Of a stretch of DNA of 33,533 nt, positions 1 to 31,920 are shown piece by piece (the stretch's first letter is position 1; each line of letters begins with the position of its first letter). The stretch is taken from the NCBI GenBank assembly GCA_015491815.1, contig WFVC01000089.1, forward strand, positions 1 through 33,533, read 5' to 3'. The translations under genes and the position numbers were made by a program. Source of the stretch: Gammaproteobacteria bacterium. Lineage in GTDB: Bacteria > Pseudomonadota > Gammaproteobacteria > UBA6429 > Thiohalophilaceae. The notes under the pieces are model-generated. The model searched no databases, was not told where the DNA came from, and worked only from the letters and a program-made list of their open reading frames with translations.

Positions 1-1806
1 ATGACGCACCTGCTCGATATCATCCTGTCGCACAACCACACGCACGATGGCGTCCCGTTGATCGAGCACATACCCGAATTCTTCACCGCGATGCAGGAAA
101 CGCCCTGTCAGATCATCCCGCTCGGGGATCACCACGACCCCATCCAGCGGGCTTCTTATCTGCAGGGCGGCGAGGCGTTCAGCCGCGCGTTGCAATTCAG
201 CTTCGAGAAAACCGATCTCCTCTTTTAACACTAACGCCTGAGCGCGATCCTCCTGCAGGCCGGCATGAAAACGCGCGCGGAACTCTTCGAGTCGCGTCTG
301 CAAAACCCGCTGTTCTTTTTCCAGTGCGGGGGACGCAAGGCGAACCAGTAACTGCCGGCGATGAACCCGTTCACCGTTGCTGACCATTATCTCCTGCACA
401 AAACCATCGACCTCACTGAGCAGACGCACATCTTCCGGCGCCCAGATCACGCCCTGCGTCTTTGTCGCCGAGGGCAATGGCAAAACAAAGAGTATCAACA
501 TGACAAGGCCGATGCCGCCTGCGGCCAACAGCAGACCGCGTTCACGCCGGGTCGGATGCATGAGCAGGCGCTGCAGCAATTTAAGCACCGGCAATAACAA
601 TGTATTTGCCAGAGACCAGAGCGCCAGCACCACGCCGAAAATAAAAAATTTCTGCGCGACAAATAAAGCAATACTCAGGCTGATAAAAATACGATAAATA
701 AAGGCCAGCGGCGCATAGCTGAACAACCAGCGTCGTTCTGAATCCTGCATCGGTGGCGCACTCGCCTCTTTGACCCCGAGCAAATAACGCTGGCCCAGAT
801 ATGCCCAGTAACGATTGCTGCGGCTGGCGAAGTTGGGGATCTCCAGCCAGTCGGCCAGAAGATAATAACCATCGAAACGCAGCAGCGGATTGCCGTTGAG
901 CATCAGGGTTGAGATCCCGGCGATCATCATGACATTGAAAGCCAGCGCACGCACCACTCCCGGCTCGACATTGATCCAGATGAGCATGGCCAGCCCGGCA
1001 AGAAACAGTTCCACCATGATCCCGGCGCCACTGACCAGCATGCGCTGATACTTGTTATTAAAGGCCGAGGCGGCGCTGGCATCGACATAGGGCACCGGCA
1101 TCAGGACCAGCAGCATAATGCCCATCTCATGCACTTCGCCGCCCCAGCGTTTTACCGCCAGCGCATGCCCCAGTTCATGCAGCGCCTTGACCAGCGGATA
1201 AACAAACCAGAGCAGCAGCAGATTTTCCATGCTTAGAATTCGATCGCTGATATTTTCAGTCAGGGCCGGCCAGTGCAGCAAAGCCATGAGCGTAGTAAAC
1301 GCCAGCAACATCAGCCAGAGAAGAAAGAAACGGCGACTGAACAGCGGACGCACCAGCGGCAGGCAGGCCTGTAAAAAACGATCCGGATCAAATAATGGAA
1401 AACGCAGCGCCAGCGGACTGCGCCAACGCGCCTTACGTTGCCGGCGTTGTTGCCGCTGACCGCGTTCCACCATCTCCAGAATGTCCGCCGGAATATCGGT
1501 GCGCAAAACATCAAACTGATGAAGCTGGGAAAGCAGATGCAGAAGTTCAGCCTGGGTCGGCGGCCTGTCCGGCCTCAGCGCCGTCGCCTGTTCCCAGATC
1601 GCCTGCATACTGTTATCGCCATTCATCAACCCGATTAACTGCCAGGCCTGTGGCGAAAACCGATGAAAGGCGCCGGTGATGGCATCCTGCAATATATAGA
1701 AACGCTGACCGCGATGGCGCTGGCGATGAATGCGCACATGGGCGCGCAGCGCCGGTTTTAAATCAGCAATCCGATACCAATAGGGGCTTTGTTGAGCATC
1801 TTCCAC
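1..1806 (-). CDS. PqqD-like / M50-like metalloprotease / HlyD-like fusion membrane protein (partial, runs off left edge)
   Basis: The reading frame is open from GTG 1806 to the window edge, giving 602 codons without a stop; the C-terminus is missing. AGGAA lies 9 bases before the GTG, and an in-frame stop lies a little further upstream. Residues about 20-110 resemble a PqqD-type winged-helix domain. Several membrane segments follow from about residue 170 to 450. They carry HELGH (H210, E211, H214), an HExxH zinc motif, and NPLLRFDG ending at D312-G313, which fits the third-ligand region of M50 site-2 proteases. After the last membrane helix (about 435-452) comes a HlyD-type segment: a lipoyl-like half (VDGFVQEIMVSNGERV), a coiled coil, and the second half beginning SPLDGVVV. 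Such fusions occur beside HlyD-type adaptors in export loci. Here it follows the GAF-HlyD gene and probably works with it on the giant protein. Whether it is a protease, a transporter part or both is unknown. Confidence 0.85.
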   Translation of the reverse strand, partial: MEDAQQSPYWYRIADLKPALRAHVRIHRQRHRGQRFYILQDAITGAFHRFSPQAWQLIGLMNGDNSMQAIWEQATALRPDRPPTQAELLHLLSQLHQFDVLRTDIPADILEMVERGQRQQRRQRKARWRSPLALRFPLFDPDRFLQACLPLVRPLFSRRFFLLWLMLLAFTTLMALLHWPALTENISDRILSMENLLLLWFVYPLVKALHELGHALAVKRWGGEVHEMGIMLLVLMPVPYVDASAASAFNNKYQRMLVSGAGIMVELFLAGLAMLIWINVEPGVVRALAFNVMMIAGISTLMLNGNPLLRFDGYYLLADWLEIPNFASRSNRYWAYLGQRYLLGVKEASAPPMQDSERRWLFSYAPLAFIYRIFISLSIALFVAQKFFIFGVVLALWSLANTLLLPVLKLLQRLLMHPTRRERGLLLAAGGIGLVMLILFVLPLPSATKTQGVIWAPEDVRLLSEVDGFVQEIMVSNGERVHRRQLLVRLASPALEKEQRVLQTRLEEFRARFHAGLQEDRAQALVLKEEIGFLEAELQRAAERLAALQIRSPLDGVVVIPERDDLTGRFLHRGEEFGYVLDQRDAIVRVVVRQDDIEQVRH

Positions 1807-2186: not shown

Positions 2187-4025
2187 TTAACCCAGCCAGT
2201 ACCAGTATTGCAGCGCCAGCCATTCACGCAAATTGCGGCTCCAGATGGAAACCAGCAATCGTTCGTCAACCTGAATCTTGGCGATGCCCTCCATCCCCGG
2301 CCGAAATTGCGGCGCGACTTTCTTCAGCTTTGCTTCGACCCGAAAAGTATTACTGCCATCGCCTGCGCTGGCCACCGGCGTTATTTTTTCAATCACGAAA
2401 GGAAACGATTGATCGGGGAGCGCGGTTAACACCAGTTGGCCCTGCTGCCCGGTTTTAACATCGCTGATGCGGGACTCTTCGACTTGCAGGATCAAACGAT
2501 AGGCCTGTAGCGGCGCCATCTCGAACAACACTTCGCCCTGTTGCACCGCGCCGCCCAGACGCTGACTCAAATCGCCACTGACGATCAAGCCGTCGAAAGG
2601 CGCGCTGAGGCGGGTGCGCTGCAGGCGATTTTCAACCAGTTGCAGTTCCGCAGTCGACTGCGCGATTTGTGATTCCAGTATGGTCACCTCGGCCCGTTGC
2701 CGGCGCGCCCGCGCATCCTGCGACTGCTTCTGTAAACGCGCGCGTTCACTCAGCCATTTGATGCGCTCAAGTCGCAAGTCGCGGTCATCCAGTTGCGCGA
2801 GTAATTGCCCCTGTTTAACCACATCTCCCGCGCGCACCGGCGCGCTGCTTATAAAACCATTAAAGGGCGCGGCAATCACCCGTTGCACTGCGCCTTCCAG
2901 CACCGAGTCAGAATTCAGCTTATAATCGCCCTTCACAAACGCCGCTAACAGCAACAAAACCAGCAACAGTGTTAACAGGCCATAGCGTCCCCATGCTCGC
3001 GTCTGTTCCCGGTTGCGCAGACGCTGGCGAACAAATTTTCCCAGCGGCAGATCCAGTCGCTGCTTATCTTTCAGCGCCGAGCCTGCGAGACTGGCGATGC
3101 TTGTTGCTGTTTCGATTTCATGCTCAGAAAACGTCTTCGATGAAGCCCGCTCCAGCATGAGTACAGCATAACATCCATCCTTATCCATTAGCGGTAAACT
3201 AAGAATGGTTCCGCTGCCTTCTTCCGCCGCCAGCCGTTCATGATCCCGGGTGATAATCCGTTGCGAGGATTCCGTCGGCCAGTGAATCAGACAGGCCTGA
3301 TCAAGCGTTTCATCCATCGCCGAGCTCAGCAGGCGAACCAGATTCATCTTTTGCGCAAAGCGGGCGCTGTGCGACAGTGCGGCGAGTTGAATTTGCCCGG
3401 CTTCAACAAAACCGATACTGACGCGTTCGCAGTCAAACAAAGCGGCCATGTCATTCACCAGCGCCAGCGCCGCTGCGCTAAACTGTGATTCCGACAACAC
3501 CCGCGCCAGTAGATCCACCGCCGGTTGCAGACGAGTCAGTATTTTTTCATCCTCAGCGGCGCGTTGCCGCCAGAGCGCCAGTTCCAGCCAGCCCGCGCCC
3601 CAGCGTAATTGTTGCATGGCCCCGGCAAGATCCGATTCCGATTGAACCGGCAACTCAATTGCAACCACGCCTTTTATTTTGCCTTCGAGCTTAAGCGGGT
3701 AACTCAGGGCATAAACCGATCGGGAGGCCGCAGTTGCTGATGGGGGGGATTCCATTTTCAACCACAGCCCGCTGCCCTGTTCAAGACTGCGCTCAATCAA
3801 ATCCGCCAGACGTTGACTGTCGCGCACGCCCTCAGGATAAAGGGCGCAAGGCGTGTAGCCTTCTTCACTTTCCAGCACCAGCACCGCCAGCGAGACGCCG
3901 CCGATATGCGAACATTGCAAAGCCAGCCAGGCCTGTGCATACGCGTCGGGATCGTCCGCGCTTTCAAACGCCGCCCAGAGTCCCTGCTGATTATCGTTGT
4001 CCCGGCTGTGTATCGGCTTATCCAT
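2187..4025 (-). CDS. HlyD-type membrane-fusion adaptor with tandem N-terminal GAF-like domains
   Basis: 612 residues from ATG 4025. A TTG two codons upstream is possible; neither start has a strong ribosome site. Residues about 15-150 look like a degenerate GAF domain and residues about 180-320 like a better GAF domain (DMAALFDCERVSIGFVE, then GTILSLPLMDKDGCYAVLML). A basic stretch and one membrane helix (about 350-366, rich in Leu) follow. The rest is a classic membrane-fusion fold: lipoyl half (NGFISSAPVRAGDVVKQGQ), long coiled coil (about 420-475), second lipoyl half (SAPFDGLIVSGDL), beta-barrel, and a short aromatic tail (LQYWYWLG). By topology the GAF domains face the cytosol and the adaptor faces the periplasm, where it should bridge to TolC. 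A GAF input on a secretion adaptor is unusual and suggests ligand-gated export. A terminator at 4076-4118 separates it from the upstream DUF3467 gene, so it probably has its own promoter or depends on read-through. Confidence 0.85.
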   Translation of the reverse strand: MDKPIHSRDNDNQQGLWAAFESADDPDAYAQAWLALQCSHIGGVSLAVLVLESEEGYTPCALYPEGVRDSQRLADLIERSLEQGSGLWLKMESPPSATAASRSVYALSYPLKLEGKIKGVVAIELPVQSESDLAGAMQQLRWGAGWLELALWRQRAAEDEKILTRLQPAVDLLARVLSESQFSAAALALVNDMAALFDCERVSIGFVEAGQIQLAALSHSARFAQKMNLVRLLSSAMDETLDQACLIHWPTESSQRIITRDHERLAAEEGSGTILSLPLMDKDGCYAVLMLERASSKTFSEHEIETATSIASLAGSALKDKQRLDLPLGKFVRQRLRNREQTRAWGRYGLLTLLLVLLLLAAFVKGDYKLNSDSVLEGAVQRVIAAPFNGFISSAPVRAGDVVKQGQLLAQLDDRDLRLERIKWLSERARLQKQSQDARARRQRAEVTILESQIAQSTAELQLVENRLQRTRLSAPFDGLIVSGDLSQRLGGAVQQGEVLFEMAPLQAYRLILQVEESRISDVKTGQQGQLVLTALPDQSFPFVIEKITPVASAGDGSNTFRVEAKLKKVAPQFRPGMEGIAKIQVDERLLVSIWSRNLREWLALQYWYWLG

Positions 4026-4075
4026 CAGCAAAGTATAAGAACTATATGCGTTAACCGCCAGAAAATATCAGGCAT

Positions 4076-4494: not shown

Positions 4495-7400
4495 CTACCA
4501 GCTCGAATAGCGGCGCGCCTCACTTTCACGTTCCAGTTTGGCGAAGGCCTTGCGGTTAAACCTCGACTGACTGTTGGCGCTCTTCGTATAGGCCTGTATC
4601 CCCAGCACGCTGCTTAAAGCCAACATTGGTTCCAGCACAGTATGCTCATTCGCGCTGTGCTCATCTTTCGAATCGTTTACCGGTTTGCAGTCAATTGCAT
4701 CGGGCAGTTTTTTCGGCTCGCCGGTGATGATCACATCAATCATGTCGCTGGCGACGCCGACCGCTTCATCAACGCTGTCAGAATCCAGCAGCTGATCCCA
4801 GAGTTCACCTATGCCCAGTCGTTTACCTTCAACCCGGGTGCAGTCAAGCTCGGGTTCTTTGACAACCGGCGTCTCAACTTTTTCTTCCACCACCGGCGCA
4901 GGCGCAGGTTTAATTTCGTCACTACCCGCCGCCGGTGGATTGGCGCGCAGGGCTTCTTCAAAAGCCACTTCTCCGGCGCTGGGTTCAGGTGGTGGTGGTG
5001 GCGGTGGCGGCGGCTCGATATCCTGAGCGCTGCTGCCAACCGGCATGGAAATGCTATTGTAAACCGGTTCATAGGCAGTCGCCGCGCTGCCCAATGGCGG
5101 AATACCGGTGATGGAAAATGGACCAAAGGCCAGAACATCCGGTGTATAAAGCGTAAACAGGGTGCTGGTAATCAGATCCAGTTTACCCTGTCCCAGACGC
5201 ACCACGCTCAGACCCTTGCCATCCTCGACAGTAATACGCGCATAGTCCCCGACGATAATATCATCGGCAAAGTTGCCGACAAATAAATCACCGTCCGCCC
5301 CCCCCAGCATCCAGTCATCGCCGTTGCCGCCATCGAGGAAATCAACGCCGCCGATAAAGAAACCGGTAGTTTCAGCCACTACCAGCGTATCATTCACCCG
5401 CACCTTACCGCCATCGCCAAGCAGGATGTCATCGCCACTGCCGCCGAACAGGCGATCCTCGCCATTGCCGCCAAACAGTTTGTCATTGCCCGCGTTACCT
5501 TCGATAACATCATTGCCGCCGGGAATGTCTATTCCGGCCTGAGCTTCGTCATCAGGATACAGATTAAATGTTTGCATCAGCGCGGGCAGGCCGTTGACAA
5601 AATTCACCTGCGCATTGTCGCCGAAGACAAGATCATCGCCGCCATTGCCGATCAGGATATCCGCTCCCGTTCCGCCGATAAGGATGTCACTGTCGCTGCC
5701 GCCAATCAGGGTATCCTCATCGCCTTCATCGAACCGGTTTGAGCTGACACTGAGCAGGCTATCCATGTTTTTAACATCGCGGCTATAGCTTATATCACCG
5801 TCATCGCCAAACATAATCGTGGCTGAATGCCAGCTCCCGGCATCGAGCGTATCATTGCCGTTTTCACCCAGCAGGATCAACACGCCATCATCGGCGCTGG
5901 CGTCCGCATCGACAGCCGTGATCCGGTCATCGCCATCATTGGCCCGGATCGTGGTGATGCTGTCGGCATGTGTGCTGGTCACGGTAGCCGTATCACTGCC
6001 TTCGCCAAACCAGATATTCACGCCCTTGTCATAACGACCACCGGTGAAATAATTAATCGCGGCAGGCGCCAGGCCGGTAATGCGATTTTGTGTGATCAGG
6101 ATATTATCATCGGCAACCGTGCTGCCTTTGTCACTGATGTTCAGCTCGTTGACGCCGGCGCCCATGAGCAGGGTCAGTTCGCCTTCGATGCCATCGAGGT
6201 TGCCGCTGTTGATCGGCGCATCGGAAGACACATTAACAGTGGCATCGCCACCGAAAGTGGCAATGGTGGTCAGGGAACCGGCGGCGGTGCTTTCCACATC
6301 AACCACATCATTGCCGCTACCGCTGCCGATATTAATAAATTCCATGTTGGCGTAGTCAATGCCGTCACTCATGCCCAGTCCGGTCAACCGGGTTGCGGTC
6401 ACGCGCAAGGCATCGTCTTCGGTTTCCGCCGTGTCATCAACGTTGAGCGTATCCGTACCGGCTTCGCCATCCACATCCAGCAGATCGGAAATGAAGTTGA
6501 CCGTGCCACCGCTATTGGGCGCGGCGCTGCCGACATTAATCACATCGTTGTCATCGCCGCCGCGCACAATCACCGGTTCAATCATGCGCTGCACATTGAG
6601 AATATCCTCACCGCTTTCACCGAACAGGCTGACTTCGCTGCCGCTGTTATTGTTTTGCAGGGTAATGCTATCGTTCCCGGCGCCGCCGCGCGCCTGCAAA
6701 ACGCCACTGGCGCTTTGAATATTAATAATATCGCTGCCGCCATTGCCGGTCAGATAGGTCGCGCCGCCAATGCTGCCGGCGACGGTAAAGATATCATTGC
6801 CGCCGCCCATGGCCAGACCGACGGATTCTATCGCGCCATAGTCGATGCCGATGGTCATGCCCATGCCGGAGAGGTATTCATCGGTGAGCACGCCATCGAG
6901 GTTGTTGGACGTATCGCCGCTGTCATCGATGATCAGGGTATCATTGTCTTCATCGCCGCGAATCACCAGCGCGCCGGTCTGCTCATTGCCATCGATATTG
7001 TCCAGCAGTCCTTCTGTTGCGATACTCGAACGACCTACGGTGATCACATCATCGCCTTCATTACCACTGACCGAGGCGGCCAGATAGTCCGGCGTGCTTT
7101 CGACAAAGACCGTGTCATCACCCTGTTTGGCGATCACTTCCAGTGACTCCAGACCGGAATCAGAACCATAGACGCCATAGCCAAAGCTTTGTTTATCCGC
7201 ATTCGTACGATCAACAACAGGTGGCGCAACCGCCACCACATCAACTTGCGAGGTAATCGTAAAGGGCTTGTAGGAGTCCACGCTAATCGCATTTACGTCC
7301 AGCAAGTCATCATTGTCGGAGCCAAAGGCAATAGCCTTGTCCGTATCCCAGAGATTGCCCTGATCGCGGATGGCGACATCCATGGAAATGGGGATCGGCA

Positions 7401-10400
7401 CCCAGGCCGGTTTGAAATAGCTGATATAGGTATCAGAACCGCCGCGGCCATCCAGCAGCAAGACATCCCGTCCCGGATTGTCGCCATAGTCAGCGGTGCG
7501 ATAAATATTGAAGGTGTCCGAACCGGTGCCGCCCGCGCCACTGCCGCCAAGTACGGTTTCAACCGCAAAGCGCTGGCTGGCGACTTCCGTTACACTGTTC
7601 GTCAGGTTGGTCGCCTTGACGATATCGCCATCGAGATAGCCCGCCGAACCGAAGTCAAAATTGATATCGGTGCTTACTGCGGTAAAGTCCCAGGTGTCGC
7701 CGACCCGACCCGTCGCGCGATTCAGATCACTACCAGTATCTTCTACCGTATCGTTGCCAAAGTCATTGGCGAAATAATAAGTATCGTTATCAAGGCCGCC
7801 TTCGAGAGTGTCGTTGCCCTGTTCGCCATACAGCGCATCATCACCGCCAAAGCCGCGCAAAATATCATTGCCCGCGCCACCATAGAGTACGTCATCGCCG
7901 GCACCGCCTTCGATGATGTCGCCGCCTTCATCACCATAAAGTTCATCGTTACCACCACGGCCATCAATTTGATCCCGGCCCTCGCCGGCGCGAATAATAT
8001 CCGCGCCACTGCCGCCGGTAATAATGTCGTCACCGCTGCCGCCATCGATTTCCGTGGCGATCGTGACGCTGCTGTCAATCGTAATGCGGTCATTGCCTGC
8101 GCCGCCGTCGATCACTAATTTTTCAATACCCACGGCGCTATAGCGATCTTCATACAAAATACCGGATTCCAGATAGCTAATCACATATTCATCATCACCG
8201 GCATCATCATTGCCATTATCGTCAAAGCTGACAGTGATGGTTTCATTACCATCAACGGCATTGCCCTGTAATCTGGCTTCCGCATTTTTACCGATGTTTA
8301 AAATTAAATCCGTTCCCACTTCCTGCGCCAGCACCGGCAGACGATTGAAAGGAACTTCAAAATCATAAATCGTGCCGCTGCCCAGGTTCATGCTGTCTTC
8401 AAAAGTGAACAGCAACAGGTCTACCTCAACAAAAGCGCGGAAGAACCAGTCAATCGCGCCGCTGATGTCAAACACGGCCAGCGGGTTGGAATCGTTGTAG
8501 CGCAGGTTGGCGCCCATCTCGGTGAAACGCACCTTGCCATCATTATTGAGATCGCTGAGATTAAAATCGATACCGGTGCGAATACCGCCTTCGACGCCGG
8601 CCTCCGCCACCAGCAGATTCAGCGAAGCGCCGGCGGCAATGGAACCGCGCAACCAGGCTTCCAGCACGTCTTCGCCGGTGCCGAAATCAATATCACTGAC
8701 GAAGAAACCATTGATGAGTTCCGCCGGGTTGTCCGTCTTCAGGAAACGGGACAGGCCCAGGGTGTCATACCCCATTGCAAGATCCACCCCGGCATTAAAC
8801 GCGCCACGCAAATTTGCGCTTAAAGGACCAAAGACCGGGAAGGACTGACGATAATCAAAATTAAATTCCAGTTTCGGTAAATCATAGGTAATGAGATTCA
8901 CATCGTCCTTGCCCAGCAACAGGCCGAAGATGTTGACTGGTTTAAGAATCGCAAAATCGACACTGCCTTCACCGACCGAAGTTTCACTGGTAACGGTTTT
9001 GGCAAATTCTCTGGCGTCGCCATTGCCGCCAATGCTATCCAGATCGATATCGGGACGGCTCGGCGCGGTGAGGCCGGAAAGACTGGACAGGCCGCGCAAG
9101 TCACCACCCGACATTTCCGTAAGATTCAAGTTGCCAAAATCCAGAACCAGATTGCCGCCGTTTGCATCATCGGCCGCATCCGTGACCATGTCGATCAAAT
9201 TATAAATTTGCTGAACTGAATTCAGGAAGGGTGTAATCCTCGCGCCGGGATCATACAGTTCGGCCAGTGAAGCCAGGGTTACGGTATAGCCTGACAGATC
9301 GGAAATAACCGGCAGGCGTTTATTGAGCATGCCATCGGGGCCGATGAGCCAGTCCAATGGATCCAGAACATCGCCAATCTGCTCAAGGAAAGGCCCGGCG
9401 AACTCGGAAATGAAGGAACCCAGATCCAGTTCAATATTATTAAACGCCACCTCGGGCGAGCCGCCGAAGCTGTTGCTGTCGGCAGCGGTATCAGCATCAA
9501 GGAAAGTCCAGTCCAGCGCCAGCGCAAAATCAATTTCAGGCAACAGGCCGCCCAGACCACTCAGGCCGGGAACTTCGGACAAGAGTTCATCCAGTCCACC
9601 GAAGCTGACATTGACATCCAGATCCCCCAGCGCGTGTCCATTGGCGTTGGCGCTGACAATATCCTTGAAACCGGTCGCCGGGGAAACCATTTCGCCGAAG
9701 GTCAGACGTCCATCATTATTGGGATCATCCAGCTCGACGCCAAAATTCAGCGCCAGATGAGAATAAGCAATATCATCTTCGGCATCGGTAGCCGGATCAA
9801 AGGCGTCTTCCGCATTTACCTGCAAAAAGCCCAGCGTGCCTTCGGCGCTGGCCGGGCCGCCGGCGCCATCGGTAAGCGCGGCATAGGTATTGATTTCAAT
9901 TTCGTTGGCGTTTTCGGTAACGAAGTAAAAACCATCGGTCTGATCAATGCCGAACCCGAAGTCCATCAGCCATTCGATGCCCAGCTCCACCCCGGCATCC
10001 AGATCCAGTCCCAGTGCGGGCAGCCCAATATCAAAATCAACCGGTTGATCCCAGAGGTAGGATTGGCCAATCTGGAAATCAAACTGGCCAAAGGTATCGG
10101 TGAGTCCAAAGCCCGTTACTTCGATATCATCAAGGTCGATACCGTCACCATCACGATCCTGCAACAGCCCCAGACCGCCAAACTCACCGAACAACCTTTC
10201 AGCGCCGTCCGCTTCACTGGCAAAAATATTGAACAGGGTTTCCTGCACCAGTACATCAGGATCATCCGCACCGCTTCGTTGCAATACGGTGCTTAAATAG
10301 GCGAGCGTATCTTCACGGAAGTCTTCAATAAACTGCGCGGCCGGTTGCAGGGCGTCGCCAAGGAAGGGCAGGTTCACATCCAGCACTTCGCTGTTAAGAC

Positions 10401-13400
10401 CTTCCTGTACGGTGTACAGCAGCGCATCCAGACCATCGACAACCACCGCCGGGTTGCTCAACATGCCAAACAAAGTCAGCGGTTCGAGATCGGTAAAGTC
10501 GGGGGCGTCAATAGATACGCTACCGGCGACGCCATCGAAGAAGTCAGCAATATTATCAACGGTGATGGCCATGATGTTATTGCCTTCGCCGCCCACCGGA
10601 CTGGAGATGCTGGGGAAGTAAACCGGCAGGCTGATGTCCGCCGCCTGCGCCAGTCCGCCATTGCTAATGCCGATGCTCAGATCATCGGCATTGAGCGCGC
10701 CAAAATCGTATTCCGCATTGTTGAGGAAGATTTCAAGCCCGGAACCCAGCGATACGTCACCGCCAATGACATTGATGCCGAATGGCCCGGTCTGCGCGGT
10801 AAACTCAAGATCGCTGCCGGTGGCGCGCACATCAAAACTTACGCTGGCGCCATCCGCACCGCCATACATAAAGGCGCTCGGTGGCGTGCTCGCATTGACG
10901 CCGGAGAGATCCAGTCCCATCGAAAGATTGAACCCGCCCTCCACTTCCAGCCCCAGATCGCCGCTTGAAGAAACGCCGATGAAATTACCGAATTTATCAT
11001 TAAAGCCGGTAAAGCCCGCCAGATCAGCCAGCCTGTCCAGACTCAGTTCCATCGGCACATTCATGTCCTGCGTGCGCGTATAGTTCAAATCGATGCGCAA
11101 CGCCGCCGCGCCCGCGGCAGTGGTGTCCAGCACCAGCTCAACCAGATCACTGTCGGCGGCCAGTCCCAGATAATCTTTGATCAGGGTTTCGGTGGCCTGC
11201 ACGCTGCCGGCGGGATTCGCTTCGAGATCATCCACCAGCGTCGCAAATTGATCGGCCATAGTCAGCAGATCCGAGGTGCTGCGATTGATCACCGGCAGAT
11301 CTTTATCCAGCGCCTCGACCAGTCCGCCCGTACCGCCCTCGCCTTCCAGATCGCGCAGATAATCCACCGCCTGATTCAGACCGTGAATAACATCGCTAAA
11401 GCCGATGTTTTCAAACTTCAGATATTCGTCGATATCCGGGCCGTCAAAACTCACCTGAATCGCATAGTCGTCACTGCTGTCATTCATTACCGGCGCATTC
11501 GCCAGCCAGTCGACGATATTCAGATCCAGACTCACCGTCGCCGCAGCAAGGGAATCCATGCCGACGCCGGTTTCCGGCGTCACCGTCAGATCAACATCAA
11601 CATTGCCGGTAACCGTGGCGTCGACAATGCCGCTGGTCTCATTGGCAATATCGCCATCAGCCATTTTTTCCAGCAGGCGATCAAGGGTGATGCGACTGCT
11701 GTCGTTTTCACTGTCATAAAGATCCAGACTGGCGCTGGCGCTAATGCCGCCTGCGCTGCCATTCATGTTGAGGCCGAGGAAACCTAAATTAGCGCTGCCT
11801 GCAATATTGCCGGCGTCAAAGCTGACATTGCCACTAAAGCTGGCGTCCTCGATAAAGAATTCCGTGGCCCGGCCACGCGCAACCGGCTCGTTATTCGCCA
11901 CCCCGTTAACGCCGCTAAAATCAAATCCCAGTTCATCAGCGGCAATGCTGTTTATATCTTTCATCGCAAAGCGCGCCACACCGGCGTCAGCCGCAAGCTT
12001 GAATACAATCAGGTTGCTGTTCATGGCGCGGTAGGCTTCCACCCCGGCGGGCAGCGCGCTGCCATCGCTACCGACAGCGTCGGCCAGCGCCGCATTGATA
12101 TCATCGACCAGATCATCTACTGAACCATTGCTCGCATCAGCGGCAACGCTGATCACATAGTCTATTTCGTCTACGACCAGCGTGAAGGTTGCTGTATCAG
12201 TTAAGATCCCATCCAACGGCGTGGGGGAGATCATCACACCCAGTTCAGAATAGGCGGTGTTGTCCGTCGCGGCGCTGACTTCCACGCGACGCTCCAGCGT
12301 CTGCGCCGATGAAGTGCCGTCACCGTTATCAACCGTAGTGCTGCTGGGCAGGGCGGTCAGGGCAATGCGATTGCCGGTGTATTCGGCAACAATATCGCCG
12401 GCGGCAAAGTCTTGTGCCTGCAGGGCAAGATCCAGTGCGGCCTGCACATCGTCGAGTAACTCATCAATGGATGTCCGATCGGCATCTTCACTGCTATCCG
12501 GTGTGGCGTTGTTCGTGTCGGGAAGCACGTTAACAATCAGCGTAGTCAACAGCGTTTCTCCGCCGTCTGCTTCCTCATAAAGTGAGACATTAAAGGTCGC
12601 TGTATCGCTTAGCACGCCATCAGCAGGCAGATCGGGAGAAAACAGCGGCGGAGCAATATGCAGTTCTTCATTCGGCGCAAGATTGGCGCCGAAGGTAAAA
12701 GCCAGATCAGCGCTGGCGTTGATCCCCAATTCGCTGGCGGACTGAATGCCGCCAAAGCTGCCGAGGTCGACATCAAAGTCAACGCCGGTGCTGCTGTCAG
12801 TAAAAGTACGCGACCAGTCGAGACGGAAACTCAGATCCTGAGTGTCGACGTCATAGTCCGCCAGCACTTCAAAGTCCTCCGGGGTATAGTCCGCCAGCAC
12901 CGCGGTCAGTTTTTCTGACAGGGTTTGCACGCTATCGAAATAGAGAATCGGATTACCATCCGCATCGCGTTCAATAAAGCCCTGCTCATCGTATTGCGCC
13001 AGATTATTCAGAATCTCATTCCGGAAAGCCTGAGCAAAATCCAGCGTCTCGCCAATGGTCACGCCATCGGTCAGCGGAATTTCCAGATCCAGCACTTCGC
13101 TTTGTCCCAGTTGCAACAACCATTCATCCAGCTGGTTGAGCATGCCCAGCATTTCTTCGGCGCTGAGATTATTAAAATCGCGGATATCATTACTGAGCGT
13201 GACATCCGGGGATTCGCCGCTGAAAACATCCGCCGCTGTTACGCCAATCGTCTGCCCGGCAAAGGTATCCCAAAGCTGAGTCCGCTCGGAATCGCTATAA
13301 ACGCTGACCGGCAAACTCACATTCAGTCCATTGCCGGCCTGCTGCGTCAAATTTACAAGGCTGTTGATATCCGCTGACAGTTCACCTGTATTCAGGCGAT

Positions 13401-16047
13401 TGGCGCCATCGCCATCGATATCGTTAAAGCCAAGCTCCAGTCCGGCATCGAGCTGAATGCCGCCGCCGCTCACCGCGGCTTCAAGGAAACCGATATCAAC
13501 GCCGAAGTTCATGTCGCTGGCGTCGATGCCGGCGCTGACATCAAACTGATTGACATCGAGGAAAAAGTTGGCGGTGTTAGCATCATCGATGGCGAGGCTT
13601 AACGCCGCATCGAGATTCATTTGCGCTGACAGTTCAAAGGTGGCGGCCGCACCCAGTTGCACGCCCAGCTCGGCGGCTTCACGACCCAGATCGATATCAA
13701 AGGTGGTGCTGCGTTCGGCATTGTAGTTAAAATTAAATTTCAGTTCCGGATTGCCCGTTGCGCCGATGACGATATCCAGCGTCATGCCGGGGGCGATGCT
13801 GGCATTGAGGCCGCCGAGATCCGGATTGTCCTGTACATCGCTGACATAAAGCCCGGCCAGATAAGTCAGCAGACCGTCGCTGGTGGGAGTTTCACCCGCA
13901 TCTGCCGCTTCCGTAAAATAATTATCCAGCCGCTGCTGTAATTGCGCGATGCTGTTGCGCGCATCAAGCACCTGATCCAGCGTCAGGTTCAAGGTTGGCA
14001 AAGCATTGGCCATCTCACCGACATTGCCCAGCTCTCCCGCCCAGTTCGTCAACTGTTGCATGCCGTCTTCAAGCGCGGTTTGCCAGTCGCTGATGTCCAG
14101 CACGGCATTGGCAATCGCATCACTGGCGGCCAGATTCAATGTCACAGAATTGCTTCCGTCACCGATGGCAACGCTGCCCGCATTATTACTCAGCGTAAGT
14201 ACGCCACTGACGGCATCGAAGTCCGGGGTATTGCTGCCCCCGGTATCGCTCAGGCTGTCATTGCCCCAGCCATCGGCAAAAAAATAACTGTCATCACCTG
14301 CACCGCCCATCAGCGTATCGTCGCCCGCGTTACCGGTGATCTGATTATTACCGCTGTCGCCAGTCAGACTGTCATTGCCGCTGCCGCCGATAATATTGTT
14401 AATGTTGCTGATGCCGCCGGTGGCGCTGGCGCTGTTGGCGGAGAGATCGACATTGACCCCGTTCAACCAGCCGGAATAATCCAGCGTGGCCGCGCCGCTG
14501 CCGCCATCAATAATTCCAGCCAGCGCCGCGCCTTCCTCGATAATAAAGGCGTTGCTACCGCTGCCGCCGATCAGATTTTCAACATTACTGGCCGTTACCG
14601 TGTTGCTGCCATCGGTGACATTAACGCTGCCATCAGCATTAATATTAAACGTCAAGTCGCTGGTGACCTGAGAAAAGTCCAGCGTGTCGTTACCTTCACC
14701 GGCAAGCTCGATAACGCTATCGCTGCCCCAGTCATCCTGAAAAACATAACGATCATCACCCAGTCCTCCTGTGAGGGTGTCATCTTCTGCGACATTACTG
14801 GTGAGCGTATCGGCGTTATCGGTGCCGACTATATCCGCCAGCACATGCGCGTAATCAGTGGCTGATGTAAACAATGAGGCGGCTTCAATCGCGCCGGTGG
14901 CCTGCTCAAGATCCCAGTCGCCACCGCTGGCCGCGCCACCGCTATTATCATCGGAAGCGGCCACATCCGCGCCGGTCAACTCGCTGATGCGAGTGATGAA
15001 TTCAACCCCGGCCTGTCCGTCCGCCACATCACAGCCGTACAGAAGAACATCGGCGTTCTCGCTCAGGGCTTCGCCCCATTGACGCAACTGGTTCTGGTAA
15101 CTGTTCAGACTGGCGTTATTGATACTGGCGTTGCCCAGTCGCAAATAGCCGGCGGCGCCATGCGATAATACATTCACGGCGGCGACATTTTCATATTGCG
15201 CCAGCACTTCGGTGATCTGAGTCAGACCGTCGCGGTTGCTGTCGAGGACGAACACCTGCACCTGAGAAGCGGAACCGGTTTGCGCATCGTCATTAATAAG
15301 CGGCAACTCGATCGAAGCCGGGACGACACTGGCCAGATCAACATAGGCAGGCGCATCGCTTGTCTTCGGCGCATCGCCACTCTCTGCTGCGCCGCTGTCC
15401 GCCGGCAACGATGAAGTCCCGGTTGCGGTTTCCGGACTGGATTCCGGCAATGTCGCCAGCAACGATTCAAACTCCGGCACGGAAGGATCGACAAAAACCA
15501 GTTGTAAACCGGATTGCGCGTTAAACGCCGCTGCGGCATCTGCCGGCAGAGTGCTAATCTGCATGTCCGTAGCAGGATCGGCTGCATCGGCTTCCGGATC
15601 TGCAGCCTCACCGGCGGCAGTCGCATCGTCTGCTGAAGCCGTATTTTCTTCGTTGTTTTCGTCCGCCGCACCGGCGTCTGTATTTTCCACCTCAGCCTTA
15701 TCCAGCGCCGAAGCTTCGGACGCCGGGCGGGGAAGTTCCGGCGTTGCCGTCTCATCATGTTCAACAACCGGGGTATCCGCCGATACCGGCTCATCGGCAT
15801 CAGCCTGTGTCGCGGTAAGCGGGGGTTCAAATTCAACGCTGTTATCAACACTGACGGTCTGCGCGTCGTCGAGTAGAAGATCCTGCGCCATATCCTGAGG
15901 CGGAATGGCAAGCTCGGCTGATAGCAGGATGCGCGGTTCCAGCGGTTCTAATAAAATTTCTGAACCAGGTAATATTTCCGAGGCGGCGTTATCACTGCCA
16001 GCGCTGTTCTCCTGTTTGCGCGCAGATTTTTTTAAATATTTAAACAT
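4495..16047 (-). CDS. Giant LEPR-XLL / DUF4347 / RTX-repeat surface protein, putative LapA-like adhesin
   Basis: 3850 residues, ATG 16047 with GGAGAAG upstream. Order from the N-terminus: a basic start; the LEPR-XLL motif (LEPRILL, residues 36-42); an acidic Ala/Asp/Glu-rich linker with TAAG at 143-146; a DUF4347 domain (about 180-392; SHG at 295-297, YGCD at 337-340); an RTX-like block (about 405-605); about 2000 residues of repeated amphipathic beta-type modules with EF-hand-like loops; strong RTX nonapeptides (about 2645-2770); a long beta-solenoid-like stretch of GxxNDxxxV repeats; a third RTX block (about 3440-3603); nine prolines; and a tail of about 160 residues with a basic end. The protein is strongly acidic and Cys-poor: by eye only C339 and two Cys in the tail. 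LEPR-XLL and DUF4347 occur in very large, probably surface-exposed proteins. The TolC gene 27 bases upstream, the adaptors downstream and the nearby lapD/lapG-like genes indicate an exported, probably releasable adhesin. The ligand is unknown. Confidence 0.9.
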   Translation of the reverse strand: MFKYLKKSARKQENSAGSDNAASEILPGSEILLEPLEPRILLSAELAIPPQDMAQDLLLDDAQTVSVDNSVEFEPPLTATQADADEPVSADTPVVEHDETATPELPRPASEASALDKAEVENTDAGAADENNEENTASADDATAAGEAADPEADAADPATDMQISTLPADAAAAFNAQSGLQLVFVDPSVPEFESLLATLPESSPETATGTSSLPADSGAAESGDAPKTSDAPAYVDLASVVPASIELPLINDDAQTGSASQVQVFVLDSNRDGLTQITEVLAQYENVAAVNVLSHGAAGYLRLGNASINNASLNSYQNQLRQWGEALSENADVLLYGCDVADGQAGVEFITRISELTGADVAASDDNSGGAASGGDWDLEQATGAIEAASLFTSATDYAHVLADIVGTDNADTLTSNVAEDDTLTGGLGDDRYVFQDDWGSDSVIELAGEGNDTLDFSQVTSDLTFNINADGSVNVTDGSNTVTASNVENLIGGSGSNAFIIEEGAALAGIIDGGSGAATLDYSGWLNGVNVDLSANSASATGGISNINNIIGGSGNDSLTGDSGNNQITGNAGDDTLMGGAGDDSYFFADGWGNDSLSDTGGSNTPDFDAVSGVLTLSNNAGSVAIGDGSNSVTLNLAASDAIANAVLDISDWQTALEDGMQQLTNWAGELGNVGEMANALPTLNLTLDQVLDARNSIAQLQQRLDNYFTEAADAGETPTSDGLLTYLAGLYVSDVQDNPDLGGLNASIAPGMTLDIVIGATGNPELKFNFNYNAERSTTFDIDLGREAAELGVQLGAAATFELSAQMNLDAALSLAIDDANTANFFLDVNQFDVSAGIDASDMNFGVDIGFLEAAVSGGGIQLDAGLELGFNDIDGDGANRLNTGELSADINSLVNLTQQAGNGLNVSLPVSVYSDSERTQLWDTFAGQTIGVTAADVFSGESPDVTLSNDIRDFNNLSAEEMLGMLNQLDEWLLQLGQSEVLDLEIPLTDGVTIGETLDFAQAFRNEILNNLAQYDEQGFIERDADGNPILYFDSVQTLSEKLTAVLADYTPEDFEVLADYDVDTQDLSFRLDWSRTFTDSSTGVDFDVDLGSFGGIQSASELGINASADLAFTFGANLAPNEELHIAPPLFSPDLPADGVLSDTATFNVSLYEEADGGETLLTTLIVNVLPDTNNATPDSSEDADRTSIDELLDDVQAALDLALQAQDFAAGDIVAEYTGNRIALTALPSSTTVDNGDGTSSAQTLERRVEVSAATDNTAYSELGVMISPTPLDGILTDTATFTLVVDEIDYVISVAADASNGSVDDLVDDINAALADAVGSDGSALPAGVEAYRAMNSNLIVFKLAADAGVARFAMKDINSIAADELGFDFSGVNGVANNEPVARGRATEFFIEDASFSGNVSFDAGNIAGSANLGFLGLNMNGSAGGISASASLDLYDSENDSSRITLDRLLEKMADGDIANETSGIVDATVTGNVDVDLTVTPETGVGMDSLAAATVSLDLNIVDWLANAPVMNDSSDDYAIQVSFDGPDIDEYLKFENIGFSDVIHGLNQAVDYLRDLEGEGGTGGLVEALDKDLPVINRSTSDLLTMADQFATLVDDLEANPAGSVQATETLIKDYLGLAADSDLVELVLDTTAAGAAALRIDLNYTRTQDMNVPMELSLDRLADLAGFTGFNDKFGNFIGVSSSGDLGLEVEGGFNLSMGLDLSGVNASTPPSAFMYGGADGASVSFDVRATGSDLEFTAQTGPFGINVIGGDVSLGSGLEIFLNNAEYDFGALNADDLSIGISNGGLAQAADISLPVYFPSISSPVGGEGNNIMAITVDNIADFFDGVAGSVSIDAPDFTDLEPLTLFGMLSNPAVVVDGLDALLYTVQEGLNSEVLDVNLPFLGDALQPAAQFIEDFREDTLAYLSTVLQRSGADDPDVLVQETLFNIFASEADGAERLFGEFGGLGLLQDRDGDGIDLDDIEVTGFGLTDTFGQFDFQIGQSYLWDQPVDFDIGLPALGLDLDAGVELGIEWLMDFGFGIDQTDGFYFVTENANEIEINTYAALTDGAGGPASAEGTLGFLQVNAEDAFDPATDAEDDIAYSHLALNFGVELDDPNNDGRLTFGEMVSPATGFKDIVSANANGHALGDLDVNVSFGGLDELLSEVPGLSGLGGLLPEIDFALALDWTFLDADTAADSNSFGGSPEVAFNNIELDLGSFISEFAGPFLEQIGDVLDPLDWLIGPDGMLNKRLPVISDLSGYTVTLASLAELYDPGARITPFLNSVQQIYNLIDMVTDAADDANGGNLVLDFGNLNLTEMSGGDLRGLSSLSGLTAPSRPDIDLDSIGGNGDAREFAKTVTSETSVGEGSVDFAILKPVNIFGLLLGKDDVNLITYDLPKLEFNFDYRQSFPVFGPLSANLRGAFNAGVDLAMGYDTLGLSRFLKTDNPAELINGFFVSDIDFGTGEDVLEAWLRGSIAAGASLNLLVAEAGVEGGIRTGIDFNLSDLNNDGKVRFTEMGANLRYNDSNPLAVFDISGAIDWFFRAFVEVDLLLFTFEDSMNLGSGTIYDFEVPFNRLPVLAQEVGTDLILNIGKNAEARLQGNAVDGNETITVSFDDNGNDDAGDDEYVISYLESGILYEDRYSAVGIEKLVIDGGAGNDRITIDSSVTIATEIDGGSGDDIITGGSGADIIRAGEGRDQIDGRGGNDELYGDEGGDIIEGGAGDDVLYGGAGNDILRGFGGDDALYGEQGNDTLEGGLDNDTYYFANDFGNDTVEDTGSDLNRATGRVGDTWDFTAVSTDINFDFGSAGYLDGDIVKATNLTNSVTEVASQRFAVETVLGGSGAGGTGSDTFNIYRTADYGDNPGRDVLLLDGRGGSDTYISYFKPAWVPIPISMDVAIRDQGNLWDTDKAIAFGSDNDDLLDVNAISVDSYKPFTITSQVDVVAVAPPVVDRTNADKQSFGYGVYGSDSGLESLEVIAKQGDDTVFVESTPDYLAASVSGNEGDDVITVGRSSIATEGLLDNIDGNEQTGALVIRGDEDNDTLIIDDSGDTSNNLDGVLTDEYLSGMGMTIGIDYGAIESVGLAMGGGNDIFTVAGSIGGATYLTGNGGSDIINIQSASGVLQARGGAGNDSITLQNNNSGSEVSLFGESGEDILNVQRMIEPVIVRGGDDNDVINVGSAAPNSGGTVNFISDLLDVDGEAGTDTLNVDDTAETEDDALRVTATRLTGLGMSDGIDYANMEFINIGSGSGNDVVDVESTAAGSLTTIATFGGDATVNVSSDAPINSGNLDGIEGELTLLMGAGVNELNISDKGSTVADDNILITQNRITGLAPAAINYFTGGRYDKGVNIWFGEGSDTATVTSTHADSITTIRANDGDDRITAVDADASADDGVLILLGENGNDTLDAGSWHSATIMFGDDGDISYSRDVKNMDSLLSVSSNRFDEGDEDTLIGGSDSDILIGGTGADILIGNGGDDLVFGDNAQVNFVNGLPALMQTFNLYPDDEAQAGIDIPGGNDVIEGNAGNDKLFGGNGEDRLFGGSGDDILLGDGGKVRVNDTLVVAETTGFFIGGVDFLDGGNGDDWMLGGADGDLFVGNFADDIIVGDYARITVEDGKGLSVVRLGQGKLDLITSTLFTLYTPDVLAFGPFSITGIPPLGSAATAYEPVYNSISMPVGSSAQDIEPPPPPPPPPEPSAGEVAFEEALRANPPAAGSDEIKPAPAPVVEEKVETPVVKEPELDCTRVEGKRLGIGELWDQLLDSDSVDEAVGVASDMIDVIITGEPKKLPDAIDCKPVNDSKDEHSANEHTVLEPMLALSSVLGIQAYTKSANSQSRFNRKAFAKLERESEARRYSSW
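5238..5728 (-). repeat. RTX calcium-binding nonapeptide block, C-terminal
   Basis: Within the giant protein (about residues 3440-3603), repeats of the GGxGxDxLx type run in series: DTLIGGSDSDILIGG, GADILIGNGGDDLVFGD, then after a short insertion GNDVIEGNAGNDKLFGG, EDRLFGGSGDDILLGD, and finally DDWMLGGADGDLFVG. They should fold into a Ca2+-dependent parallel beta-roll, typical of type I secretion substrates. Unlike classic RTX toxins, about 230 residues follow the block rather than a short C-terminal signal. Confidence 0.85.
7738..8113 (-). repeat. RTX calcium-binding nonapeptide block, central
   Basis: This is the most regular RTX block of the giant protein (about residues 2645-2770). It begins GGAGNDRITI and continues through GGSGDDIITGGSGADII, GRGGNDELYGDEGGDII, EGGAGDDVLYGGAGNDIL and GEQGNDTLEGG. 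It ends in a DTYYFANDFGNDTVED cap like the caps that close many beta-rolls. It separates the beta-module region from the downstream beta-solenoid-like region. Confidence 0.88.
14230..14835 (-). repeat. RTX-like block, N-terminal
   Basis: Residues about 405-605 of the giant protein, directly after DUF4347. The repeats are looser than in the other blocks: DDTLTGGLGDDRYVF, a GGSGSNAFII segment, IIGGSGNDSLTGDSGNN and GDDTLMGGAGDDSYFF. Two DxYxF-DxWGxDS caps divide it into two units. It was probably secreted early or late with the DUF4347 head, depending on export direction, which the sequence does not settle. Confidence 0.7.
15610..15621 (-). other. Candidate LapG cleavage motif TAAG in the giant protein
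   Basis: Codons ACT GCC GCC GGT encode T143-A144-A145-G146, in a disordered acidic linker between the LEPR-XLL motif and the DUF4347 domain. LapG of Pseudomonas fluorescens cuts LapA between the two alanines of a TAAG sequence near the N-terminus. The match is exact, and a LapG-like protease is encoded at 22227-23078. Other Ala pairs occur nearby, but none in the T/P-A-A-G form. Cleavage here is inference. Confidence 0.5.
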
Positions 16048-16074: not shown

Positions 16075-17427
16075 TTATTCCAGCCAGTTGTTAATCGCCA
16101 GCAGATCCTGTTCCGTCAGATTTCCGGTTACTTTTTTAAGGCGTAAACTGTTTAGCAAATACTCATAGCGCGCCTGCGCATAATCTTTTTTCGCCTGATA
16201 AAGATCGCGTTCGGCGTCCAGCACATGAATATTCGTGTTCAGGCCGGACTTGAAGCCTTCGCGCTTGGCTTTCAGGGTGCGCTGCTGTGACTTTACCGCA
16301 TGACTCAACGCTTCCACCTTGCTGATCGCGCTGATCACGCCGTGATAGGCCGCCGTGGTTTTACGCACGACCAGTCGGGTCTGCTGTTCCAGATCCTGTT
16401 TGGCCTTGGCGTACAGCTCTGCGGTTTCCCGGCTGCGCGAACTGACCATGCCGCCTTCATAAATGGGCAGGCTGAAACGCAACAGAATGTCCCGGTTTTT
16501 GACTTCGCTGCCACCGCCAAACAGGGTGCCGCCGGTGTCGCGATAATTCTGCCGCGCCACCACATCCAGAGTGGGCAGGTGACCGGCCTTCTGACGTTCC
16601 TGTTCATGCCGCGCGATTTCTACGGCATAGCGGGCAATCAGAATGTCCGGATTGGACTCCATGGCGATATCCACCCAGGCCTGCAGATCTTCCGGCTCAG
16701 GCCGTTCCAGCACGATGTCGTTTTTCAGGCGATTCAGGTTTTGTGGTAATTCCCCGGTGGACTCGCGCAGTTCCTGCTGGGTATCTTCAACCGCGAAACG
16801 ATTCTCGACGCTCACCGACTCCACCCAGGCATAACGGGCTTCAGCATCCAGTTTATCCGTCAGTCGCGCCAGTCCCATTTTGTAGCGGCCTTTGGCCAGA
16901 TCCAACTGGCGTTTTACCGCGACTTTTTCGGTTTCTGAAAATTCAAGCAGATCCTGCGCGGCCAGCACCTTCATATAGCGCTCGCTGGTGCGTAGAATCA
17001 GATCCTGACGCGCCTTGAAAAATTCAATTTCCGCTTTCTTGCTTTCCACTTCCGCCTGACGAATGCGCACGATGCTGGCCCACTGGAACAGGGGCTGGGT
17101 TAGTTTGAGGGTATAGCTATTGGTGGGGAAACGGGTCTGGCCGACGGCAAACACGGCATTATCACTGCTGATCACATCCTGCGTCGTTTCGGTGCGCTCG
17201 ATATCCAGACTGACATTGGGCAGATAGCCCGCCTGCGCCTGATTCAGCGATTCTTCCGCCGCCCGCCGCGCATGCAGACTGCCAACGAACAGGGGATCAT
17301 TGACCAGCGCTTTGCGATATATTTCCTCCAGATTCTCAGCATGCACTGATGTGATTGTGAACAAACTCAGCAGTATGATTAAAAAGTTAACTATGCGCAG
17401 ACAGGGGGGGCATGTTTGCAGTGACAA
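16075..17427 (-). CDS. tolC: TolC-family outer-membrane efflux/secretion channel
   Basis: 450 residues from TTG 17427, chosen because GAGGAG lies 7 bases upstream. A GTG at 17442 would add five residues but has no ribosome site. A signal peptide is clear, with a hydrophobic core VNFLIILLSLFTI followed by SVHA and cleavage before ENLEE. The mature part shows the duplicated TolC fold: EEIYRKALVNDPLF at the start, AGYLPNVSLDIER, then in the second half a VEIARHEQERQKAGHLPTLD segment and FSLPIYEGGMVSSR. The length is normal for the family. It is the outer-membrane exit duct for type I secretion and efflux, equivalent in role to LapE. The giant protein gene starts 27 bases after its stop, so the two are almost certainly cotranscribed. 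Transcription should start in the 17443-17744 region shared with the divergent response regulator. Confidence 0.92.
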   Translation of the reverse strand: MSLQTCPPCLRIVNFLIILLSLFTITSVHAENLEEIYRKALVNDPLFVGSLHARRAAEESLNQAQAGYLPNVSLDIERTETTQDVISSDNAVFAVGQTRFPTNSYTLKLTQPLFQWASIVRIRQAEVESKKAEIEFFKARQDLILRTSERYMKVLAAQDLLEFSETEKVAVKRQLDLAKGRYKMGLARLTDKLDAEARYAWVESVSVENRFAVEDTQQELRESTGELPQNLNRLKNDIVLERPEPEDLQAWVDIAMESNPDILIARYAVEIARHEQERQKAGHLPTLDVVARQNYRDTGGTLFGGGSEVKNRDILLRFSLPIYEGGMVSSRSRETAELYAKAKQDLEQQTRLVVRKTTAAYHGVISAISKVEALSHAVKSQQRTLKAKREGFKSGLNTNIHVLDAERDLYQAKKDYAQARYEYLLNSLRLKKVTGNLTEQDLLAINNWLE

Positions 17428-17442
17428 GCTATCTCTCCTCAC

Positions 17443-22173: not shown

Positions 22174-22226
22174 TGACTGCCGCCTTTAATAAATGTATCA
22201 CTCATTATTATTGTGTTTCTTTAATC

Positions 22227-23078
22227 TTAGTGCTTTATTTCCATTCGTTCCATCAGCATTTTCCAGATACCAATATTTGCGCTTTTACCAACCTTTATTC
22301 CACCTTCACGCAACATCTTGGCCTGCCAAAGGCTGTTGCCGTTAAAGCTGTAAGAGGGGATCAGATCCTGACGCAGAGAGGCGGGCTGGATCTCCGGATC
22401 CAGATTGTCCAATATCAACGGTTCGGCATCCGCATTTTTATAATAGCCCAAAACCATATGCGCCTGATTAATCGATGTTGCTTTTACATAGATTAGTCGT
22501 AATTTCTCTGTTTCAATCCCTAGCTCACGCAAGGTAAAATATTTGGCAATCGAAAAGTCTTCACAATCGCCTGCGGCGGTGGCGATAAATTCAACCGGGG
22601 TCGCCCAGTAATCCTTCTTTCCCCAGTGTTCCATGTCGCTGATGAATTCCATACGATTGAAATATTGATTAACGATCTCCAATTTTTGTCTCTCGGATTC
22701 ATCACGATTAGCGACAATCATCGCCTGCCAGTCTTCAATCCGTTTAACTGCAGCCTGACCATAGTGATTTTGCAAGGCCTTCAGTTGCTGGGGCGTCAAT
22801 AATTGCGATCCGCTCACCGTTATGTTCACCACCAATAATATCAGCAATACAAATAAAACATACGCGCAAGCATTATTTATCCCCTCGACAGGGAAGGAAC
22901 GCTTTATAAGCTTATAATAATGATCAGGCATCATCTGGACAGAAAAAACGGACAGACGCCGTCTTTCCGGCATATCTCTAATTGCTAATATCCTTTTATC
23001 GGCCAGAAAAGACAGAGAGTTGAGTCTATAGCCTGATTCATTCCGGCATCCGCCCACAAATAAAGATTGAATCCGCAT
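22227..23078 (-). CDS. lapG: LapG-like periplasmic transglutaminase-like cysteine protease
   Basis: 283 residues if started at ATG 23078, which has AGGAAA 8 bases upstream. ATG 22973 or 22934 would give 248 or 235 residues and a more usual N-terminus just before the single membrane or signal helix (YVLFVLLILLVVNITVSG). The protease domain shows the bacterial transglutaminase-like triad: C172 in AAGDCEDFSIAKY, H207 in NQAHMVL, and D224 in LILDNLDP. A Trp-rich ridge upstream (FISDMEHWGKKDYWATP) is typical of LapG. The family cuts the N-terminal region of LapA-type adhesins at a di-alanine site, releasing them from the cell, unless LapD holds the protease. It ends 53 bases before the lapD-like gene and so fits a lapG-lapD unit. 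The substrate is probably the giant protein of this locus. Confidence 0.9.
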   Translation of the reverse strand: MRIQSLFVGGCRNESGYRLNSLSFLADKRILAIRDMPERRRLSVFSVQMMPDHYYKLIKRSFPVEGINNACAYVLFVLLILLVVNITVSGSQLLTPQQLKALQNHYGQAAVKRIEDWQAMIVANRDESERQKLEIVNQYFNRMEFISDMEHWGKKDYWATPVEFIATAAGDCEDFSIAKYFTLRELGIETEKLRLIYVKATSINQAHMVLGYYKNADAEPLILDNLDPEIQPASLRQDLIPSYSFNGNSLWQAKMLREGGIKVGKSANIGIWKMLMERMEIKH

Positions 23079-31900: not shown

Positions 31901-31920
31901 TGTAGCTGAAGCCGTACTTA
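31901..31920. repeat. Decayed half-copy of the double-palindrome repeat
   Basis: TGTAGCTGAAGCCGTACTTA matches TGTACGGCTGAAGCCGTACCTA from the array at 1848-2140 with a three-base deletion and one substitution. It overlaps the stop codon of the dmsBC-like gene (31918-31920). Confidence 0.6.

Follow-up and report, generated by a model that had tools for sequence, protein, structure and literature searches.

A PqqD–M50–HlyD fusion protein in a widespread bacterial export module linked to giant LEPR-XLL proteins

We analyzed a 33,533-nucleotide stretch of a gammaproteobacterial genome (the window; contig C89), which opens with a gene for a chain that joins a PqqD-like domain, an M50-like membrane metalloprotease and a HlyD-like adaptor. 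On balance, we place this protein at the inner membrane as the hub of a TolC-type exporter that has no ABC transporter and is dedicated to giant LEPR-XLL surface proteins; the hub would be equipped for leader capture and trimming. The putative recognition and cleavage of a leader by this chain are plausible, because it carries a PqqD/RiPP recognition element (RRE) domain and an invariant zinc site and is associated with LEPR-XLL giants. Its gene is part of an export module that is widespread in bacteria and has been little studied; we link this module to its probable cargo, giant surface proteins that start with a short LEPR-XLL tag (Table 1).

Table 1. Features of the window and of contig C184, with the matches that identify them
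Feature	Position	Strand	Basis
PqqD–M50–HlyD protein	1..1806	−	602 of ~717 aa; remainder on contig C184 (7977–8786, minus); 80 full-length relatives
HlyD/MacA-like adaptor domain	1..483	−	Residue 442 onwards, truncated at contig end; Pfam HlyD_3, MacA fold match
M50/site-2-protease-like membrane core	721..1236	−	Residues ~191–362; Pfam M50 sub-threshold, NF041824 159 bits, fold match RseP
NPLLRFDG motif, presumed third zinc ligand D312	868..891	−	Residues 306–313; N306, P307, D312 invariant in 81/81
HELGH zinc motif (H210, E211, H214)	1165..1179	−	Residues 210–214; H, E, H invariant in 81/81
PqqD-like/RRE domain	1492..1761	−	Residues ~16–105; Pfam PqqD in 29/33 relatives, PDB profile match 3g2b, fold match 5v1v
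GAF–HlyD adaptor protein	2187..4031	−	Next gene upstream of protease; Pfam GAF and HlyD
3850-aa giant (LEPR-XLL N-terminus, DUF4347, RTX repeats), presumed cargo	4495..16047	−	NF012209, Pfam DUF4347 and RTX
DUF4347 domain, caspase-like fold	14833..15522	−	Invariant His and Cys; model pLDDT 78
TAAG, possible LapG cleavage site	15610..15621	−	Residues 143–146 of giant; weak
LEPRILLSAE motif, presumed recognition element	15913..15942	−	Residues 36–45; conserved block in 32 N-termini
TolC family outer-membrane channel	16075..17442	−	TIGR01844 331 bits, over cut-off
LapD-like c-di-GMP receptor	20242..22173	−	NF045673 420 bits, below cut-off of 1020; LapD_MoxY_N, GGDEF, EAL
LapG-like periplasmic cysteine protease	22227..23078	−	NF045674 220 bits, below cut-off of 320; Peptidase_C93 over cut-off
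SecA-like pseudo-ATPase	L092 (G000:C184) 6404–7990	−	Walker A lost, ORF open

Domains and zinc site of the PqqD–M50–HlyD protein

The reading frame lies on the minus strand and starts with GTG. It is incomplete and stops because contig C89 stops, the window start being the contig end (G000:C89:1). A second contig of this genome, C184, shares 454 bp with C89 (97.6% identity) and supplied the final ~115 residues. The break falls inside the M50–HlyD gene, and an overlap of this identity suggests a strain mixture in the assembly. The architecture was found at full length in 80 loci of many phyla, and it is therefore neither chance nor a chimera. The initial annotation, made from the DNA alone, had described one chain of these three parts; Pfam and profile matches, fold matches of a homologue model and the 80 loci bore this out.

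Two observations concern other stretches of the window. Between the M50 and GAF–HlyD genes (1845–2139), a tandem array is built from 2.5 copies of a unit of 118 bp that contains two palindromes. Searches for its 35-bp core gave 19 matches in the genome and 0 in a reversed control, and the array resembles a dispersed hairpin element of REP type. At 31918–33531, a single ORF fuses a 4Fe-4S DmsB-like subunit to a DmsC membrane anchor, beside a molybdopterin oxidoreductase that ends in a BFD-type 2Fe-2S domain.

For the fold comparison, an AlphaFold2 model of the L005 homologue (79% identical; pLDDT 84, pTM 0.61) was matched against the PDB. The match list held mostly adaptor folds, with the RRE and RseP rows among many others, each covering the whole domain. 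Residues 16–105 resembled TbiB1 with bound leader peptide (5v1v; Z 10.5, 86 aa, 2.6 Å) and a second lasso-peptide recognition element solved with its leader (6jx3; Z 10.3). A Pfam search of the window protein itself left PqqD undetected at E<0.1, and profile and fold comparisons were needed. Of 33 N-terminal domains of the family, 29 matched Pfam PqqD, with a best E of 2e-7. The family profile, run against the PDB at E≤10, matched the two solved PqqD chains only (E 0.007 and 0.66). The domain, which is expected to be cytoplasmic, thus combines membership of the PqqD sequence family with the winged-helix RRE fold.

The membrane core (residues 191–362 of the model) matched RseP (7w6y; Z 9.9, 140 aa, 5.4 Å), and the Pfam M50 score of the window protein, 21.6 bits, fell short of the 27.2-bit cut-off. 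A zinc site formed by HELGH and NPLLRFDG had been proposed for this region, and lack of HExxH conservation in relatives had been named as a finding that would count against the proposed path of leader recognition, cleavage and export. The check did not go against it: H210, E211, H214, N306, P307 and D312 proved invariant in all 81 sequences, and HExxH was also present in 39 of 39 further loci readable through that region. The number given earlier for the glutamate, E211, was correct. HExxH and NPxxxxD accordingly sit within a membrane core of site-2 protease fold, and activity is predicted. The best NCBIfam match was the daptide intramembrane metalloprotease NF041824 (residues 24–418; 159 bits, cut-off 300); the PqqD–M50 part is a relative of that family, not a member. 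At the C-terminal end, Pfam HlyD_3 scored 28.0 bits, over its cut-off, and residues 442–704 of the model matched MacA/MexA adaptors, with a best Z of 14.4 (MacA 9qgy).

The export module and its SecA-like subunit

In most of the 80 loci, the GAF–HlyD gene adjoins the protease gene. The conserved gene order in these relatives is GAF–HlyD, PqqD–M50–HlyD and a SecA-like ATPase of ~665 aa, often followed by a HlyD protein of ~250–280 aa. The SecA-like gene overlaps or abuts the end of the PqqD–M50–HlyD gene. In the genome of the window, C184 continues after that end with a SecA-like ORF and then a 267-aa ORF with HlyD similarity.

Kamneva, Poudel and Ward (2015; PMC4452313) described a module of GAF–HlyD, Peptidase_M50–HlyD, SecA_DEAD, HlyD/biotin_lipoyl and sometimes OEP/TolC. 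They noted the missing ABC transporter and proposed SecA_DEAD as the ATPase and M50 as the pore; the main text mentions neither PqqD nor a giant cargo and terms the role of the module completely unknown. Our literature search found no functional study of it later than 2015. The window system belongs to this module, except for an active ATPase. GAF–HlyD (2187–4031) stands beside M50–HlyD (1–1806), the extra HlyD lies downstream as the 267-aa ORF, and the window has no ABC gene; the SecA_DEAD counterpart (C184:6404–7990) is without Walker A. Our analysis extends the 2015 paper by the PqqD/RRE domain, by the invariance of the zinc site and by the association with LEPR-XLL giants.

The SecA-like proteins of the relatives scored ~600 bits against SecA profiles, and the alignment ended at about SecA residue 604. 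The C-terminal part of SecA holds the helical wing and the two-helix finger, which the SecA-like proteins therefore lack. Walker A was intact in 67 of 69. The copies of this genome and of its two nearest relatives, L005 and L006, have ~530 aa and no Walker A, and they group as a single clade within the intact ones (tree support 100); the tree label 'none_in_locus' was for some rows set by how far the contig extends. Decay to a pseudogene was not supported, as each of the three genomes keeps the reading frame open and the dN/dS of the gene against L005 was 0.25 (0.11 for the protease gene and 0.09 for the small HlyD). A conserved C-terminal tail (...LSFxG..) is retained in the copies without Walker A. 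This protein looks like a conserved non-ATPase subunit under purifying selection. The rest of its own genome held the housekeeping SecA only and no other SecA-like gene.

In 40 gammaproteobacterial loci, the SecA-like gene was in place in 16 and locally missing in nine close relatives, and 15 belonged to a divergent class without it. Some of the nine carried it elsewhere in the genome (G273, G070, G307). Whole-genome searches found none in others of the nine (G184, G165, G304 and G170), all of which have LEPR-XLL proteins and the protease, and none in four examined genomes of class C (G159, G252, G284, G145). We rejected the SecA-like protein as a universal motor on account of these whole-genome absences. 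Its motor step is not general, because Walker A is lost here and in L005 and L006 and the gene is missing in G184, G165, G304 and G170. The PqqD–M50–HlyD protein is the constant part of the system, and the SecA-like motor is an option.

The giant LEPR-XLL proteins and competing explanations

The giant encoded in the window scored 23.9 bits against NF012209 (LEPR-XLL; residues 32–54), over the cut-off of 17, and matched Pfam DUF4347 (171.8 bits) and RTX. The 32 LEPR N-termini were collected with a pattern that fixed L/M/F-E-x-R and the hydrophobic positions, and neither the leading E nor S-A-D; only an E-x-LEPR-x-L-x-S-A-D block was conserved among them, and the flanks were not. By inspection, the LEPR-XLL N-termini are basic and have no hydrophobic signal-peptide core. 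At the sequence level, a conserved block between unconserved flanks looks like a short recognition tag, although this pattern is no proof of cleavage.

The association between such proteins and the protease was strong. Among 323 evenly drawn Gammaproteobacteria, the protease occurred in 26 of the 28 genomes with a strong LEPR-XLL match and in 22 of the 295 others (Fisher p 6e-23, ignoring kinship). It was likewise present in 6 of 8 LEPR genomes within a set of 247 from the Desulfobulbus phylum (Fisher p 4e-7, kinship again ignored). Conversely, genomes chosen solely for holding the protease had LEPR-XLL in 27 of 30 cases (controls: 0 of 14). Twenty-two of the 48 protease-bearing gammaproteobacterial genomes were without a strong LEPR match, and most of these have a divergent subfamily. 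When giant coordinates and ORF lengths were set against locus coordinates, LEPR giants of 6,400–15,600 aa were found directly upstream of GAF–HlyD in at least nine loci (L043, L058, L017, L022, L025, L067, L068, L072 and L073). LEPR-XLL giants are the probable cargo of the module. A literature search returned nothing on LEPR-XLL function, nor on a link to an RRE–protease exporter.

Three further features were observed. The candidate cargo of a divergent system (L160, 6115–8625) starts with MRKLEQRVVLDAA, which suggests a broader LExR-hydrophobic motif with LEPR-XLL among its forms. The C-terminus of the giant (4495–4900; LWDQLLDS...KRYS.W) is conserved in the L006 giant and may be a second signal or an anchor. 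A pair of LapG-like and LapD-like genes (20242–23078) lies near the giant RTX protein, and no LapB-type ABC transporter was found in the genome.

LapG and DUF4347 are competing candidates for the processing of the giant. In one alternative, which we consider unlikely, LEPR-XLL would be a docking or retention signal that the M50 protein binds and does not remove, holding the end of the giant in the envelope. LapG would then cut at TAAG (residues 143–146) when c-di-GMP falls, as with Lap adhesins, and the M50 zinc site would serve otherwise, for example in the turnover of stalled substrates. LapG-like and LapD-like proteins are both encoded in the window, and TAAG comes after the LEPR motif in the giant. 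However, the zinc site is invariant across genomes, and a (T/P/A)AAG-type motif arises in the first 250 aa in 9% of shuffled sequences. TAAG is also missing from the giant of the close relative L006, and we rejected it as strong evidence for a LapG site.

Alternatively, the giant may process itself: DUF4347, just after the leader, would remove the N-terminus, and the M50 protein would be a translocation platform only. The modeled domain was closest in fold to the T6SS effector Tce1 (Z 11.7), followed by SAVED-CHAT (Z 8.6) and caspases (up to Z 7.5). Its His and Cys were invariant in 26 of 26 domains, and DUF4347 comes after LEPR in many giants. A caspase fold with a His–Cys dyad places the domain in clan CD, with peptidase activity predicted. 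Yet cleavage by DUF4347 is putative, the account leaves the invariant M50 zinc site unexplained, and the two proteases could act in series. We regard self-processing in place of M50 cleavage as improbable.

The 2015 proposal as published, in which M50–HlyD takes the place of the ABC transporter as a pore, with the SecA-like protein as its ATPase and no role for leader recognition, fits the same locus and its missing ABC transporter (PMC4452313). However, it takes no account of the PqqD/RRE domain or of the association with LEPR-XLL, and the ATPase is degenerate here and missing elsewhere, which leaves this version with a slim chance. No ABC transporter was found beside the protease gene in the window or in the loci of relatives, where the apparent matches were, in L160, an ABC-F protein and, in L148, an Atm1-type exporter at a distance of 7 kb. 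The ABC transporter of a canonical type I secretion system (ABC transporter, adaptor and TolC) was found neither in the window nor, above the profile cut-off, in its own genome, which is 93% complete, so that absences are provisional. RTX repeats and TolC are typical of type I cargo, but we give almost no credence to secretion of the giant by an ordinary ABC-type system encoded elsewhere, with the locus product unrelated: the best match to the LssB-type transporter (TIGR03375) in this genome was 295 bits against a cut-off of 693, its three full-length ABC proteins appear to be Atm1/MsbA-type exporters, and LEPR-XLL and M50 co-occur strongly.

Proposed mechanism and comparison with known systems

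In the reading we prefer, an ABC-free exporter built around the PqqD–M50–HlyD hub, the cytoplasmic PqqD/RRE domain would first capture the basic LEPR-XLL N-terminus of the giant. The chain would then cross the inner membrane, either at the M50 core or next to it. In most relatives it would be pushed by the neighboring SecA-like ATPase, whose motif is intact in those relatives and lost in this genome. As the chain enters the membrane, the M50 zinc site would remove the leader, as its invariant active site and the M50 leader proteases of RiPP systems suggest. Finally, the HlyD domain, GAF–HlyD and the small HlyD, recognized by fold and neighborhood, would connect to TolC, the exit of the giant. 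In this genome, LapG and LapD may later control its release from the surface.

The initial annotation had suggested that leader recognition, cleavage and export could be joined in one machine. The RRE fold, the invariant zinc site, the adaptor in the same chain and the statistical and positional link to LEPR-XLL agree with this, but a single machine is too narrow, because GAF–HlyD, a second HlyD and TolC, and in most cases a SecA-like ATPase, also belong to the conserved system. More tentatively, we propose a distinct secretion route, in which a LEPR-XLL leader is read by an RRE–site-2 protease–adaptor fusion, a shortened SecA (core motor only) replaces the ABC transporter and trimming occurs during export. 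The SecA copy of the window lineage would be a conserved pseudo-ATPase, implying a second energy source.

If this is true, RiPP-style leader recognition directs the largest proteins of bacteria (up to ~15,000 aa) to a hybrid exporter whose motor derives from SecA. The PqqD–M50 chain and LEPR-XLL would each gain a function, as would the module for which the 2015 paper could name none. Vibrio superstes, Marinobacterium rhizophilum, Desulfobulbus rhabdoformis and Methylobacterium extorquens AM1 are examples of culturable hosts in which each step could be tested.

Compared with the SecA_DEAD, T1SS-like module of 2015, the system has the same gene set and no ABC transporter, and its SecA-like subunit is here a pseudo-ATPase. 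The giant exceeds the cut-off of the LEPR-XLL model (NF012209), which itself is a domain name only. The Lap retention system likewise groups a LapG-like protease, a LapD-like receptor, TolC and a giant RTX protein; here, in contrast, no LapB-type ABC transporter was found, the N-terminus of the giant has LEPR-XLL and the LapG site is only suggestive. RseP and the site-2 proteases share the HExxH and NPxxxxD zinc site and the membrane core fold (Z 9.9), whereas the window protein carries RRE and adaptor domains and no PDZ domains were seen in it. RRE-dependent proteolysis is known in lasso peptides, and the M50 protease EpeP is thought to cleave and export (PMC10885120). The daptide and epipeptide M50 proteases (NF041824, NF058609; EpeP) mature RiPPs and may export them, and the PqqD–M50 part aligns with NF041824 over residues 24–418. 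Unlike these proteases, the window protein falls below both equivalog cut-offs (300 and 225) and has a C-terminal HlyD domain, and its presumed cargo is a giant protein instead of a small peptide.
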